From an uncultured Fretibacterium sp. (GTDB lineage Bacteria; Synergistota; Synergistia; Synergistales; Aminobacteriaceae), in NCBI GenBank assembly GCA_946186205.1, contig CAMHMH010000001.1, positions 744,001-808,000 on the forward strand: a stretch of 64,000 nucleotides of DNA. Direction: 5' to 3'. Position numbers and translations under genes: made by a program. The first letter of the stretch is position 1, and each line of letters starts with the position of its first letter. The notes beneath the pieces are model-generated. The model worked only from the letters and a program-made list of their open reading frames with translations, was not told where the DNA came from and searched no databases. Below, piece by piece: positions 58,245 to 63,594 of this stretch.

Positions 58245-59285
58245 CTACATTTTCAGGAAATCCGGCAAAACTTTCTCAAGCTCATCAAACGGATATTCCC
58301 CGCATGATTTACCCTCACGGAACAATACCGCCCCGCTTGGAGTCCCTGCGATTCCGAACTGCGCATGCCTCGCTTCTTTCGGGCCGTTGACCTCGCACCC
58401 CATCACAGCAACCGACACGCCGTCAGGAAGATTCGCTAACATAGGCTCAACAATCTTCACGAGATTCATGACATCAGCGCGCCTTCTTCCGCAAGTGGGA
58501 CAAGAGATCAGATTCACTCCGCGAGTCCGAAGCTCTAACGCCTTCAGAATCTCATAGCCGACTCGCACTTCCCTTTCAGGCTCATCCGTCAATGACACGC
58601 GCAAAGTATCACCGATTCCCCTCATCAATAACGCCGAAATACACGCAGTGCCCTTCACGACTCCTCCGTCGCCCGGCCCTGCCTCAGTGAGTCCAATGTG
58701 CATTGGGAAATCAGGATATGCCGACGCGATAAGCTCATTTGCCCGGACGCATTCAGGAACGCTTGAGGATTTCGCCGACAAAATTATGTCCGTGAAATTG
58801 TGACTCAGCAATAATTCTGCCTGCTCGCGCACAGCAATGAAGAGAGCTTCTGCCCTGTCGCCTTTTGCCGCGTCAAGCTGGGACTGTGATACGCTTCCTC
58901 CGTTCGCGCCGATTCGAATCACAACGCCTGAATCTTTCGCGCATGATATTACGTCATTGAGCCGGGACAAAGGCATGTTGCCGGGATTGATTCTGATTGC
59001 CTTGCAGCCGGACTCCATCGCAAGAATCGCTAATGCAGGGTCAAAATGAATATCCGCCATAATCACGAGCCGAGTCGACTCAACGAGAGCTTTCAGATCC
59101 GGGGCATATTTCGCGTGAGGAAGAGCAGCCCTCGCCATCTCGCACCCGGACTTTATGAGCCTCTCACACTGTGCTGTGCATTCGTCGCGTTTGTCGAGGG
59201 AAATTTTCAGCATGCTTTCGACTCGCACGGGAGCATTTCCGCCGATTGTGAGTCCGTTAATGTTTACTTGTCGTTTGCTGTTCAT
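58245..59285 (-). CDS. ispG: 4-hydroxy-3-methylbut-2-enyl diphosphate synthase IspG
   Basis: 346 residues; the [4Fe-4S] enzyme of the MEP isoprenoid route. The three cluster Cys are at 262, 265 (SCPTCGRRR) and 297 (GCEVNGP), with the following Glu. TIM-barrel features include VIMADIHFDP, AIRINPGNM and HIGLTEAGP. It follows rseP by 3 nt; the usual third partner dxr is not seen. Confidence 0.95.
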   Translation of the reverse strand: MNSKRQVNINGLTIGGNAPVRVESMLKISLDKRDECTAQCERLIKSGCEMARAALPHAKYAPDLKALVESTRLVIMADIHFDPALAILAMESGCKAIRINPGNMPLSRLNDVISCAKDSGVVIRIGANGGSVSQSQLDAAKGDRAEALFIAVREQAELLLSHNFTDIILSAKSSSVPECVRANELIASAYPDFPMHIGLTEAGPGDGGVVKGTACISALLMRGIGDTLRVSLTDEPEREVRVGYEILKALELRTRGVNLISCPTCGRRRADVMNLVKIVEPMLANLPDGVSVAVMGCEVNGPKEARHAQFGIAGTPSGAVLFREGKSCGEYPFDELEKVLPDFLKM

Positions 59286-59288
59286 GGC

Positions 59289-60341
59289 CTAATGAGTGAG
59301 AAACAAATTGTAGACATCCTTGCACGTAACAAGAATCATCAGCGAAATCAACACGACAAATCCCGCTGTGTGAATCCAGTTCTCGACCTTCTCAGGAAGT
59401 CTTCTGCGCAATACTATCTCAAGCACAACGAACAAGAGCCGCCCTCCGTCAAGCGCAGGAATGGGAAAAAGATTCAGTATTCCGAGATTAAGAGCGATGA
59501 TTGATATGAAGGAAATGAATCCCCACAAGCCCGACTGTAAAGCATGGCCGGACATTGAAGCGATGCCGACGGGGCCGGTTACGTCTGCTTCCTGATAGCC
59601 CATGACTAACTCAGCGAGTCCGCGAAGCATCATCAATGTCATTCTGTAGATATAGCCCGCAGAGTTCCTGAAAGCCATGAAGATTCCGTAACGCACATAT
59701 GACGGTGATACGCCTAACATGGGGCGGCCGTATTCCTCATTGTTTGGTATGCTGACGGTTAATGATAATGTTTCGTTGCCTCGTTTGACTGTGAGTGAGA
59801 CTGACTCATTTTTGGCGGCTTCGACTCGAATCTTCTCTGACATTTCGCGCCATCTTGTTACTGACTCGCCGTTGACTTTCTGAATCTCATCGCCGACTCT
59901 GAGTCCTGCAATTTCTGACGGGAAACCGGGCATAATCTCGCCGATTTTTGTGCTGTCCATGTCGAGAATGCCATTGCCCCAGAGATATAACGCCATCAGC
60001 AAGACAGCAAGAAGAATGTTGAACGCCGAGCCGTTAAGGAGGATGAGGAATCTTTTCCACGCTGATTGTTCGTTGAAGCCTTTGCCGGGGATAACTTTCT
60101 CGCCGTCGTCCTCTTCATTCATTCCCGCGAGTCTGCAGAAGCCCCCGACAGGAAACGCGCGCAATGACCATAACATTCCGTTTTTGTCCCGGTGCTGAAG
60201 GAGAGCCGGCCCCATTCCGAACGCGAACTCGTGAACCTGAACGCCTAAAATTTTTGCGGTGATGTAGTGTCCGTATTCATGTACGACAACGCAGACTGCT
60301 ATAACGATTACGAAAGCTATAACGCTCATAAGCAAATGCAA
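59289..60341 (-). CDS. rseP: RseP-type site-2 protease (zinc intramembrane metalloprotease)
   Basis: About 350 residues. HEYGH in the first helix is the zinc site, NLFPIPALDGGR the second active-site motif, and a PDZ domain (GFPSEIAGLRVGDEIQKVNG) lies between. It cuts transmembrane anti-sigma factors or signal-peptide remnants. TTG at 60341, 10 nt after AGGGAG, was chosen; ATG 60329 is the alternative. A long frame to 60437 overlaps the glycosyltransferase and has no ribosome site. Confidence 0.9.
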   Translation of the reverse strand: MHLLMSVIAFVIVIAVCVVVHEYGHYITAKILGVQVHEFAFGMGPALLQHRDKNGMLWSLRAFPVGGFCRLAGMNEEDDGEKVIPGKGFNEQSAWKRFLILLNGSAFNILLAVLLMALYLWGNGILDMDSTKIGEIMPGFPSEIAGLRVGDEIQKVNGESVTRWREMSEKIRVEAAKNESVSLTVKRGNETLSLTVSIPNNEEYGRPMLGVSPSYVRYGIFMAFRNSAGYIYRMTLMMLRGLAELVMGYQEADVTGPVGIASMSGHALQSGLWGFISFISIIALNLGILNLFPIPALDGGRLLFVVLEIVLRRRLPEKVENWIHTAGFVVLISLMILVTCKDVYNLFLTH

Positions 60342-60394
60342 GCTGTATACACTCCCTAATTCTTTATGGAAATTTTCACATAGTATACAGCAAA

Positions 60395-61447
60395 TTATTT
60401 TCTGCGCGGCTTGTGGATGTGGAGAAACACAAGACATCTTTTGATGAATGTTTTCAGCTTCTGCTTCAATGAATGCTTTGACTTAGTATAGTAGATGCCC
60501 GAGTATTTCTTGATGTAATTCACGAGCTTGGAATAAGTATTGCTGTTACGCTTGACAGGTGCTTTATACATGGCATCCACAGCACAGAGGTAAAAATTTG
60601 CTTCGATTTGTTCTGAAGCTCTTTTCGGGAGATCTTTGCGGGCATAAATTTTTTCCAGGGCGTAAAGCTCGCGGTGGTATCCGTCTTCTGTGTAAATTTT
60701 AGCGGAGTCTCTGGTCAGCCCTTCATTTTCATGCTGAACATAACAGTACAGCCAGTAATCAATATAGCAGACTTTGACATTCTTCCTGCTGAGTATAATA
60801 TTAATGAACCAGTCAACATCTTCACAGTAGTGCAGGTTTTCATCAAAGCGTATATCTCCTATAAATTCGCGGCTCAAGGCTTTGTTGTGGGTGAAGCCTC
60901 CGACTTTGTTGCTTTCAAGAATCCTTACGCATAATTCCTCGCCGTCAGAAATTTCAGCGTCATCACTCTTCATATCCTGAGCATCGTATACGGGGAAACC
61001 TTCTGCCGGAATATTCATGCTTGTGTAGTGCCGGAACACGATCGCATCAGGCCGGCCTAGTACCTCTATTGCTTTTGACAGCACGGAAACCAGACAAGGG
61101 GAGGCGTAATCATCAGAATCACAGAACGTGATATATTTGCCTCTGCACTGAGCGAGCGCGATATTCCGGGCATGTCCCGGCCCGCGGTTTTCGGTGTGGG
61201 TTACGTGTATGAAGGGATATTTGTCGGCATAGGAGTCGCAGATTTCCCCGCTGCTGTCTGTTGAACCGTCATCGGTGATGATTATCTCGTAATTTCGTTC
61301 GGGGATTTCCTGATTTATGAGGCTGTCGAGGCATTTGGCTAAATACTTCTCTGTGTTGTATACGGGGATTATGATACTTATTTCCGGCCATGAGTTATGG
61401 CTGTCGGCTGTCGGCTGTCGGCTGATTGTAGCGATATTATCCGGCAT
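60395..61447 (-). CDS. Glycosyltransferase family 2 protein with 5' heptanucleotide repeat
   Basis: 350 residues. The GT-A domain starts at about residue 22 (EISIIIPVYNTEKYLAKCLD) and has TDDGSTDSSG and the DxD-like FCDSDDYASP; further motifs are HNKALSREF and YCEDVDW. The C-terminal 100 residues are helical and basic. It would add sugars to a surface glycan. Start ATG 61447 has AAAGGA upstream. The first ~20 residues are not part of the family domain and are encoded across 3.7 copies of GGCTGTC (plus strand), a repeat that changes frame if its number changes. Confidence 0.88.
   Translation of the reverse strand: MPDNIATISRQPTADSHNSWPEISIIIPVYNTEKYLAKCLDSLINQEIPERNYEIIITDDGSTDSSGEICDSYADKYPFIHVTHTENRGPGHARNIALAQCRGKYITFCDSDDYASPCLVSVLSKAIEVLGRPDAIVFRHYTSMNIPAEGFPVYDAQDMKSDDAEISDGEELCVRILESNKVGGFTHNKALSREFIGDIRFDENLHYCEDVDWFINIILSRKNVKVCYIDYWLYCYVQHENEGLTRDSAKIYTEDGYHRELYALEKIYARKDLPKRASEQIEANFYLCAVDAMYKAPVKRNSNTYSKLVNYIKKYSGIYYTKSKHSLKQKLKTFIKRCLVFLHIHKPRRK
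61399..61424. repeat. Heptanucleotide tandem repeat GGCTGTC x 3.7
   Basis: Three exact copies of GGCTGTC and five bases of a fourth (plus strand), inside codons about 8-17 of the glycosyltransferase gene. Seven is not a multiple of three, so slippage would shift the frame. Confidence 0.85.
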
Positions 61448-61488
61448 TGTCAATTATTCCTTTCATGTGATTATTGTGATGGAAGTAT

Positions 61489-61571
61489 AAAAACAGGCTG
61501 AGTCCCATTGCGCTACGTCCGAAACGCCCCCTGACCCGAAATCAGGTGCGCACATCATGACTCAAAACCTG
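61489..61571 (-). ncRNA. Multi-branched structured RNA element with U-tract
   Basis: Paired parts (plus coordinates): CAGG 61494-61497 with CCTG 61568-61571; TGAGTC 61499-61504 with GACTCA 61559-61564; TGCGC 61509-61513 with GCGCA 61548-61552; hairpin CCTGA/TCAGG (61530-61534, 61542-61546) with 7-nt loop; smaller hairpin at 61515-61527. On the minus strand the outermost stem is followed by five U. It lies between malY and the glycosyltransferase gene, so it may be a complex terminator or a cis-regulatory RNA. The fold is by eye. Confidence 0.45.
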
Positions 61572-61588
61572 CTGACGGAAATTATACT

Positions 61589-62779
61589 TTACCTTGCGTG
61601 CTTTGTGTATACTTCCTTCATTCGACTCAGCGCGTCATGTATATATCTCTCAGGGCAGGCGATATTCCACCGCTCGAAGCATTCACCCTGCCCGCCGAAA
61701 ATATATCCCTCGTCAAAGAACAATCTCGCCTCCTCGTGATTCACTCGCTCTAATTCCTCATGGCCGAGTCCGAGTCCCCTCATGTCGAGCCAAAGCAAAT
61801 ATGTTCCCTCAAGGTCAAACACTTTCACCGCAGGAAGCTCCCTCGCAATGAAGTCCGCAATGATCCTCCTGTTGCCGTCAATCACGCTCAGACATTCATC
61901 GAGCCATTCACCGCAATGTTTATAGCCAGCTTCACACGCAGTATAGCCGAGTATGTTGCACTTGGGATTCGGATTCGACAGCTTGAGAGACGCAAAATAT
62001 TTTTCACGCAATGACTCATCAGGGACAAATATATTTGATGTCTGAAGCCCGGCAATGTTGAATGTCTTGCTAGGAGCGGTAAGCACGAGGCAGTTATTCG
62101 CAAACTCATCACAGATTGAAGCGTAAACCGTATGAACATGCCCCGGCATTATCAGGTCAAAATGAATCTCATCCGACACGACAAGAACATTATGCTTCAG
62201 GCAGATATTACCGATCCGAGTCAGCTCATCGCGAGTCCAGACTCTTCCGACGGGGTTATGAGGGCTGCAAAGGATTAACATCTTCACATTAGGGTCTGAG
62301 GCTTTGCGCTCCATGTCGTCAAAATCTATCTCATAGCGAGTCCCCGTATTAATCAGCGGATTTGCGACTAGCTTGCGGCCTGTTGTGTTCACGGCCATGT
62401 ACATTGGGTAGTACACGGGAGTCATTAACATTATGCCGTCGCCCTCGTTCGTGAACGTCAGAACCGCCCGGAAGAACGCATCAACGACTCCGCTTGAAGG
62501 CAATATCCATTCGGGTTTAGCGTCCCATTTGCGGCGGACTCTCATCCATTCGCAGACTGTTGAAAGATATTCGCTCGTTGGATTCTCGTAGCCCATTATT
62601 GACTCGTCGAGCTGTCGTTTTATCGCGCTCACAATTTCCGGCGGGGTAACAAATTCCATGTCAGCAACTGAAAACGGAATTATGTCATCTGACTCACTAA
62701 CTCCGAATCGTTTCAGCTCGTTCCATTTTCCCGAACCAGAATTGAATCTCTTGTGTACTGTCTCAAAGTCATATTTCAT
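61589..62779 (-). CDS. MalY/PatB-type aminotransferase (cystathionine beta-lyase family)
   Basis: 396 residues, PLP fold type I. The N-terminal IPFSVADMEFVTPPEIVSAI (20) is the MalY/PatB hallmark; SPHNPVGRVW, SDEIHFDLI and the PLP lysine in APSKTFNIAGLQ are intact, with the late Arg in FERWNIACP. These enzymes cleave C-S bonds of cystathionine or cysteine conjugates. Start 62779 has AAGGGAG upstream. It overlaps no neighbour but follows the MBL gene by 14 nt. Confidence 0.92.
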   Translation of the reverse strand: MKYDFETVHKRFNSGSGKWNELKRFGVSESDDIIPFSVADMEFVTPPEIVSAIKRQLDESIMGYENPTSEYLSTVCEWMRVRRKWDAKPEWILPSSGVVDAFFRAVLTFTNEGDGIMLMTPVYYPMYMAVNTTGRKLVANPLINTGTRYEIDFDDMERKASDPNVKMLILCSPHNPVGRVWTRDELTRIGNICLKHNVLVVSDEIHFDLIMPGHVHTVYASICDEFANNCLVLTAPSKTFNIAGLQTSNIFVPDESLREKYFASLKLSNPNPKCNILGYTACEAGYKHCGEWLDECLSVIDGNRRIIADFIARELPAVKVFDLEGTYLLWLDMRGLGLGHEELERVNHEEARLFFDEGYIFGGQGECFERWNIACPERYIHDALSRMKEVYTKHAR

Positions 62780-62793
62780 TCTAAAAGCTCCCT

Positions 62794-63594
62794 TCATAGT
62801 GTGATGGTCTCGAAATCATCAGGCACGTATAAATTTCCCGAATAATATTGCCTCCCTTCAGCCGTATAACGTTCCTTCCTGTGCGCTAAGTCTGAGTCCT
62901 CAGTGTGATATAGCAGCAAGTTTTTGACTCCGAGTCTCTGCGCGGTAATGCTCGCGTCTTTCACGGTTGAATGATGCTTGCCGTATGGGTCAAATATTCC
63001 TGCGTCCGAGCAAAGGCAAAATGATTCGTGCATAAGCCATTCACAGCCCCGAACATATTCATAGCTCGACTCGTGGCATGGCTCATCACCGCAGAAGGCT
63101 AATTTTTTCCCGCTGTCATAATCCATAATGAAGCCGTATTGTTTTGTGCGCGATGAATTTACGTCAAAAATTTTCACGTCATGGCCGATAATGCTGCGTG
63201 TCTCGTTTTTGCTGACGGTGATTAAGTGAATGCGTTTGTGAACATAATCATACTGGTACGGCAGAAGAAACTTCCGGCAAATCTCATCAGTCAGTTCTAT
63301 AACTTCATCATGAGAATATATATTCATGTCGCCGTCAAAGCGTCCCTTGTCCATGAGCTGAGCTGTGATTCTGATTACCCATATTGCACCGAGTATGTGA
63401 TCTATGTGCGAGTGTGAGATAAATACATCGTGAATTTCCGGGAGCGAGTAGCCCGCGTGCTTTATGTGATGAAGAATCGTATTGCCTCCGCCGGTGTCAA
63501 CAAGAAAATTTTTCCCGCTGTCATCAAGAATGAAGCATGTGTTGTAGCATTCTGTAACAAGTGCGTTTCCAGTGCCAAGCATAACAAGTTTCAT
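62794..63594 (-). CDS. MBL-fold metallo-hydrolase (RNase Z-like)
   Basis: 266 residues. The metal motif SHSHIDHILG (HxHxDH) is plain, followed by single His/Asp ligands in FCGDEPCHES and LLLYHTEDSD; the N-terminus MKLVMLGTGNA is RNase Z/ElaC-like. It lacks the long exosite arm of tRNase Z, so a small-molecule hydrolase is as likely. Start 63594 has GGGAGAAAA upstream and overlaps yigZ by 4 nt. Confidence 0.88.
   Translation of the reverse strand: MKLVMLGTGNALVTECYNTCFILDDSGKNFLVDTGGGNTILHHIKHAGYSLPEIHDVFISHSHIDHILGAIWVIRITAQLMDKGRFDGDMNIYSHDEVIELTDEICRKFLLPYQYDYVHKRIHLITVSKNETRSIIGHDVKIFDVNSSRTKQYGFIMDYDSGKKLAFCGDEPCHESSYEYVRGCEWLMHESFCLCSDAGIFDPYGKHHSTVKDASITAQRLGVKNLLLYHTEDSDLAHRKERYTAEGRQYYSGNLYVPDDFETITL

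Follow-up and report, generated by a model that had tools for sequence, protein, structure and literature searches.

The window, by which we mean the whole 64-kb stretch of DNA analysed, carries on its minus strand a GT2 glycosyltransferase ORF of 350 codons (60395..61447, ATG at 61447) whose product has a GT2 domain at residues 24-145 (PF00535, E 4e-36). Upstream lies a gene for a MalY/PatB-like aminotransferase (61589..62797) and downstream one for an RseP-like site-2 protease (59289..60437), followed by ispG (58245-59285), all on the same strand and all named from their sequences. The GT2 gene overlaps or almost adjoins rseP and ispG (60395-60437), and these housekeeping genes could suffer polar effects when the GT2 frame is OFF. 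It is from the family of the enzyme, and not from its housekeeping neighbours malY, rseP and ispG, that we infer that it may act on surface sugars.

A heptamer array in the first codons of the GT2 gene

Codons 8-17 of this ORF consist of a tandem array (61399..61424, minus strand), which Tandem Repeats Finder, applied to the 64 kb, reported with period 7, 3.7 copies and 100% matches, the longest perfect one in the window. The unit is GACAGCC on the coding strand, written here as CAGCCGA CAGCCGA CAGCCGA CAGCC, and GGCTGTC on the plus strand. In its context on the minus strand the array (bracketed) reads GAAAGGAATAA TTGACA ATG CCG GAT AAT ATC GCT ACA AT[C AGC CGA CAG CCG ACA GCC GAC AGC C]AT AAC TCA TGG CCG GAA ATA AGT ATC ATA ATC CCC. 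A 26-base exact run of period 7 amounts to 19 consecutive matches, for which we estimate a chance expectation of about 1e-6 per 64 kb. An earlier note on this DNA had described 3.7 copies of GGCTGTC at codons about 8-17, ahead of the GT2 domain, and the perfect array and a domain that begins at residue 24 bear it out; the range given there, 61399-61447, does include the array, but the array itself ends at 61424 and the remainder reaches to the start codon.

When frame states were computed, 3.7 copies yielded the protein of 350 aa, 2.7 copies a product of 20 aa and 4.7 copies one of 19 aa, and a change of two units led to products of 12 or 27 residues. The claim that one unit gained or lost shifts the frame therefore stands. 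So does the claim that no usable in-frame start follows the repeat, as the first in-frame ATG/GTG/TTG past the array is GTG codon 122, within the GT2 domain; with no in-frame start before that codon, a translation start downstream of the array was ruled out by sequence. On the 5' side, all on the minus strand, an AAAGGA ribosome-binding site (61458..61463) lies 10 nt before the ATG, a position conserved across the cassettes described below. TTGACA (61448..61453), immediately 5' of the ATG, matches the -35 element of an embedded promoter, P2, and TACAAT (61425..61430) matches its -10 element, with a 17-nt spacer between the two and the last base of TACAAT adjoining the start of the array. Further upstream, TATACT (61484..61489) is a candidate -10 element of a second promoter, P1, weak at the window locus and strong in most cassettes.

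In the mechanism that we propose, mRNA from the upstream promoter would supply the ribosome site and ATG of the window gene, and the ribosome would then read the heptamer array and continue into the GT2 domain. Slipped-strand mispairing would gain or drop one 7-base unit and, 7 not being divisible by 3, two in three copy numbers would run into a stop within some 10-30 codons (OFF) and the third would give the full enzyme (ON), the state predicted for the copy sequenced here. As the window array is short (26 nt), and its nearest ortholog also has 3.7 copies, the window locus may slip rarely.

Arrays at the orthologous site and across the genus

In each of three other species the syntenic ortholog of the window gene has an array at the site of the window array, in two of them with a different 7-base unit. 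The gene order malY-GT2-rseP-ispG (names read from the sequences) is kept in genomes G005 and G004, and malY-GT2-rseP in G051 as far as the stretch examined reaches. The nearest ortholog, that of G051, has the unit of the window gene in 3.7 copies and is out of frame owing to the flank, while those of G005 (about 6 copies of AGCACCG) and G004 (about 10 copies of CGCCCAA/T) are in frame. Since G051, G005 and G004 keep the position and period while the units differ, the array is retained at this site as its unit turns over, and this combination of a constant site and a changing unit separates selection for frame-switching from the descent of one repeat. The out-of-frame ORF of G051 is intact and has a dN/dS of 0.25 relative to the window gene, so that the gene has not decayed in this OFF copy, and a pseudogene reading was rejected.

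The orthologs also bear on whether the array might be a fixed, neutral, low-complexity N-terminal extension in which slippage is too rare to matter. Such an extension would suit the mere 3.7 copies of the window array and of its G051 ortholog, the related protein that G011 encodes at another place without array or P2, and the decayed in-frame array of a source-genome copy at C1:581138. Drift, however, would not hold arrays of different units at one site across species, nor would it avoid every period divisible by 3 or put two-thirds of the long intact ORFs in the wrong frame, as found in the genus-wide set below, and we consider a neutral extension very unlikely.

We searched 43 genomes of the genus and 140 others of the order for ACAGCNN, three in tandem. 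Such arrays occur in 26 of the 43 genus genomes, in two of which (G006, G023) all matches are imperfect and fall within long non-cassette ORFs, and in 4 of the 140 genomes from the rest of the order (Fisher p 3e-16). These counts, together with the perfect repeat in the window, led us to reject a chance origin of the arrays. Two genomes from other genera of the order, G100 and G137, have 28 and 7 overlapping matches, respectively.

The surroundings of about 70 arrays (72 loci) were retrieved for analysis. Cassette periods across the genus are 5, 7 or 8, with none of 6 or 9, and never a multiple of 3. A sense-strand stop is present in 0 of 22 distinct units in any frame, as against 31% expected of random 7-mers, and an antisense-strand stop in 5 of the 22. 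With 22 distinct units, and with diverse 17-nt spacers and flanks, the spread of one repeat family by copying was likewise rejected. The genes carried include GTs, acyltransferases, FkbM methyltransferases and LicD, a set strongly biased towards surface glycans. Copy number differs between species (one genome per species compared) and between paralogs. Three large surface-protein-like genes of G047 (L197, L198 and L200; up to 967 codons), for example, have near-identical 5' regions with 4.3, 4.3 and 5.3 copies. About 13 of the 72 array loci lie at contig ends, with the contig ending exactly in the array, several of them being two halves of one locus; the contig pairs L190/L191, L210/L212, L251/L252 and L253/L255 look like such halves. 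Breaks of this kind suggest mixed repeat numbers in the sequenced populations, and identical units shared between loci can be another source of them.

Pattern searches of the source genome set a lower limit of at least 14 cassettes, and a search for near-copies yielded two heptamer arrays besides that of the window, of 8 and 14 copies, in the first codons of acyltransferase-3 genes. Besides the window GT2, the cassette genes of this genome comprise another GT2, a GT2-like gene with a decayed array, a fucosyltransferase-like GT10, two acyltransferases, FkbM methyltransferases, a nitroreductase-like gene, as well as others, some of them unclassified. The decayed array (GCAAACTGCTAACAGCGAACAGCCAACA) belongs to a GT2 gene on the minus strand (L324, G000:C1:581138), where it lies in frame beside an intact P2 module, as though fixed in the ON state; intact arrays are present in similar genes of G003, G005, G012 and G022. 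Five tandem GT2 genes lie on one contig of the same genome (G000:C6:2355-7063). The source genome also has two matches above the cut-off to Synergist_CTERM (TIGR04564), of which 14 control genomes have none, and on these grounds we assign it to Synergistota.

Two cassette classes with a shared promoter-plus-repeat module

Class A cassettes, among them the window locus, have the array within the first codons of a long ORF. The ORF is in frame with its start in 13 of 41 cases, indistinguishable from one-third and as expected for free slippage; because the starts were chosen for their distance from the ribosome site, individual ON/OFF assignments may be in error. Out-of-frame class A ORFs of 240-970 codons are otherwise intact.

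In class B cassettes a short open stretch comes after the array, and the next gene begins at a start codon of its own, which mostly lies 34-137 nt downstream. Here the leader is a short ORF with a ribosome site and the array inside, one frame of which reaches the next gene. In 17 of 21 leaders one frame stops within 8 nt of the next start codon, as against 5.4 +/- 1.8 in shuffled leaders (maximum 11 in 500 shuffles), a null that replaced one drawn from other genes (45%) because those genes sit in operons. Nine of the 17 junctions between leader and start are ATGA overlaps. A strong intrinsic terminator (hairpin and T-run, dG -13.8 to -16.7) is found in 6 of 27 leaders, compared with 1.5% in shuffles, and the long frame reads through it in L189, L217, L230 and L242; most class B leaders have no recognisable terminator. 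In class B, then, one frame would have the leader translated throughout, sometimes across an intrinsic terminator, with the stop on the next start codon, and we infer that a ribosome in the long frame may block termination and/or hand over to that start. Direct fusion and leader peptide would represent two output modes of one module. At nine class B loci (L189, L208, L209, L211, L217 (5899-5930), L226, L227, L228 and L230) the unit is TCGGCTG, the reverse complement of the class A unit CAGCCGA found in the window gene; these leader RNAs might base-pair with mRNAs of class A.

Taken together, these data make a translational contingency locus the very probable reading of the window locus, as one of the switches, of classes A and B, that are spread across this genus of Synergistota, and they argue strongly for slippage as the predicted means of switching at the window locus. 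The ON/OFF reading of the window gene in the earlier note was right in its frame logic, and it gains from the arrays kept at the ortholog site, the non-triplet periods, the stop-free sense-strand units and the roughly one-third of ORFs in frame. The embedded promoter, the further cassettes and the leader-peptide class go beyond what that note described.

Nearly all cassettes have a common layout: an AAAGGA-type ribosome site, a start codon at or inside TTGACA-N17-TATAAT (P2), and an array adjoining the TATAAT. P1, a TATAAT-like element 45-90 nt upstream, has at most one mismatch in 68 of 84 cases versus 19% in controls, and is a perfect extended TGnTATAAT in 29 of 84 versus 0.1%. P2 (TTGACA-16/18-TATAAT) has at most 2 mismatches in 12 at 59 of 73 non-redundant arrays versus 0.3% of control positions, a comparison in which the P2 motif partly set array orientation, a choice that raises the chance rate no more than twofold. 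In 39 of the 73 the last base of P2 directly precedes the array. The spacers between the hexamers are diverse (mean pairwise identity 0.34); the rows compared were picked by hexamer match, and hexamer identities are inflated accordingly. When the source genome was searched with the module or with P2 only, the repeat not being used in the query, further arrays of unrelated units were found (CGCCTAT, CCACA with period 5, TTACGGC, GTTCGCA, ATCACGC, CGAACCA, CAAGCCA, GAGCAAC and AAGCCAC). Of 30 near-consensus P2 sites read in this genome, 11 adjoin an array and a twelfth adjoins a decayed one; outside the genus, no array accompanied any of the twelve module matches read. The module is a single recognisable layout, for which every genome of the genus can be screened.

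Such a close fit of P2 to the consensus, ending exactly at so many arrays, would also be expected if the arrays acted on transcription, with P2 as a working promoter and the array as an initially transcribed region whose copy number tunes promoter escape or RNA stability and not frame, but this is very unlikely, given that RNA begun in the array would have no ribosome site or start codon, that the window gene and other class A ORFs have no later usable start, and that stop-free units, non-triplet periods and leader stops on start codons would be left without a reason.

For translational switching, too, P2 transcripts would start inside the array without a start codon, so that class A proteins, the window GT2 among them, cannot be expressed from P2. 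Possible roles for P2 are melting of the array so as to raise its mutability, pausing of the polymerase for ribosome loading, and supply of RNA to later genes. Only tentatively do we suggest that P2, overlapping the start codon and ending at the array, might be a working part of the switch, melting or transcribing the array and so causing more slippage, or pausing the polymerase while ribosomes load. A link between P2 strength and array length was tested as support for a mutator role, and no correlation was found (Spearman 0.09, p 0.43). Were this role of P2 true, the module would be a contingency cassette that brings its own mutability or coupling element, and the fusion of P2 to the array raises a testable question, namely whether promoters are positioned in bacteria so as to adjust mutation rates locally.

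Comparison with known systems

Searches of an open-licence library of papers turned up no report of phase variation in Synergistes or Synergistota, and we found no earlier description of a set of this kind, spanning a genus and sharing one layout of promoter and repeat. Translational SSR contingency loci are known from the LPS and capsule glycosyltransferase genes of Haemophilus influenzae and Neisseria and from the Campylobacter phasome. As in those loci, non-triplet repeats lie here in the 5' codons of genes for predicted surface-sugar enzymes, where gain or loss of a unit would shift the frame; the window locus has the perfect non-triplet repeat, the position ahead of the domain and the early stop upon a change of unit. 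Unlike those loci, the arrays described here are mostly of 7 bases, occupy one conserved position with many unrelated units, adjoin a consensus sigma70 promoter and belong to the phylum Synergistota. In hmw1A/hmw2A of H. influenzae, heptanucleotide repeats in the promoter region grade transcription. These also are 7-base units that control a surface factor, but the window array lies downstream of the ATG and so is not a promoter repeat of the hmwA type.

Class B finds its closest likeness in pil1/pil3 of Streptococcus gallolyticus, where GCAGA repeats in a leader peptide are combined with a premature terminator, an arrangement proven by mutants for pil1 (PMC3894217). As in pil1, repeat number would, in the mechanism proposed for class B, set the stop of the leader peptide relative to the terminator and the next start. 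Class B differs in its 7-base (some 8-base) units, in the many genes per genome, in the frequent ATGA stop-start overlap and in that most leaders have no recognisable terminator; the window locus, being class A, is not of the pil1 type. Heptamer repeats of one G-rich unit family, mostly intergenic, have been described in Xanthomonas and Nostoc (PMC4692102), and tandem 7-mers are over-represented there, as here, at many loci per genome. Unlike those repeats, the units described here vary by locus and sit in translated 5' regions. The cassettes as a whole suggest that Synergistota have a large repertoire of surface genes predicted to be phase-variable.
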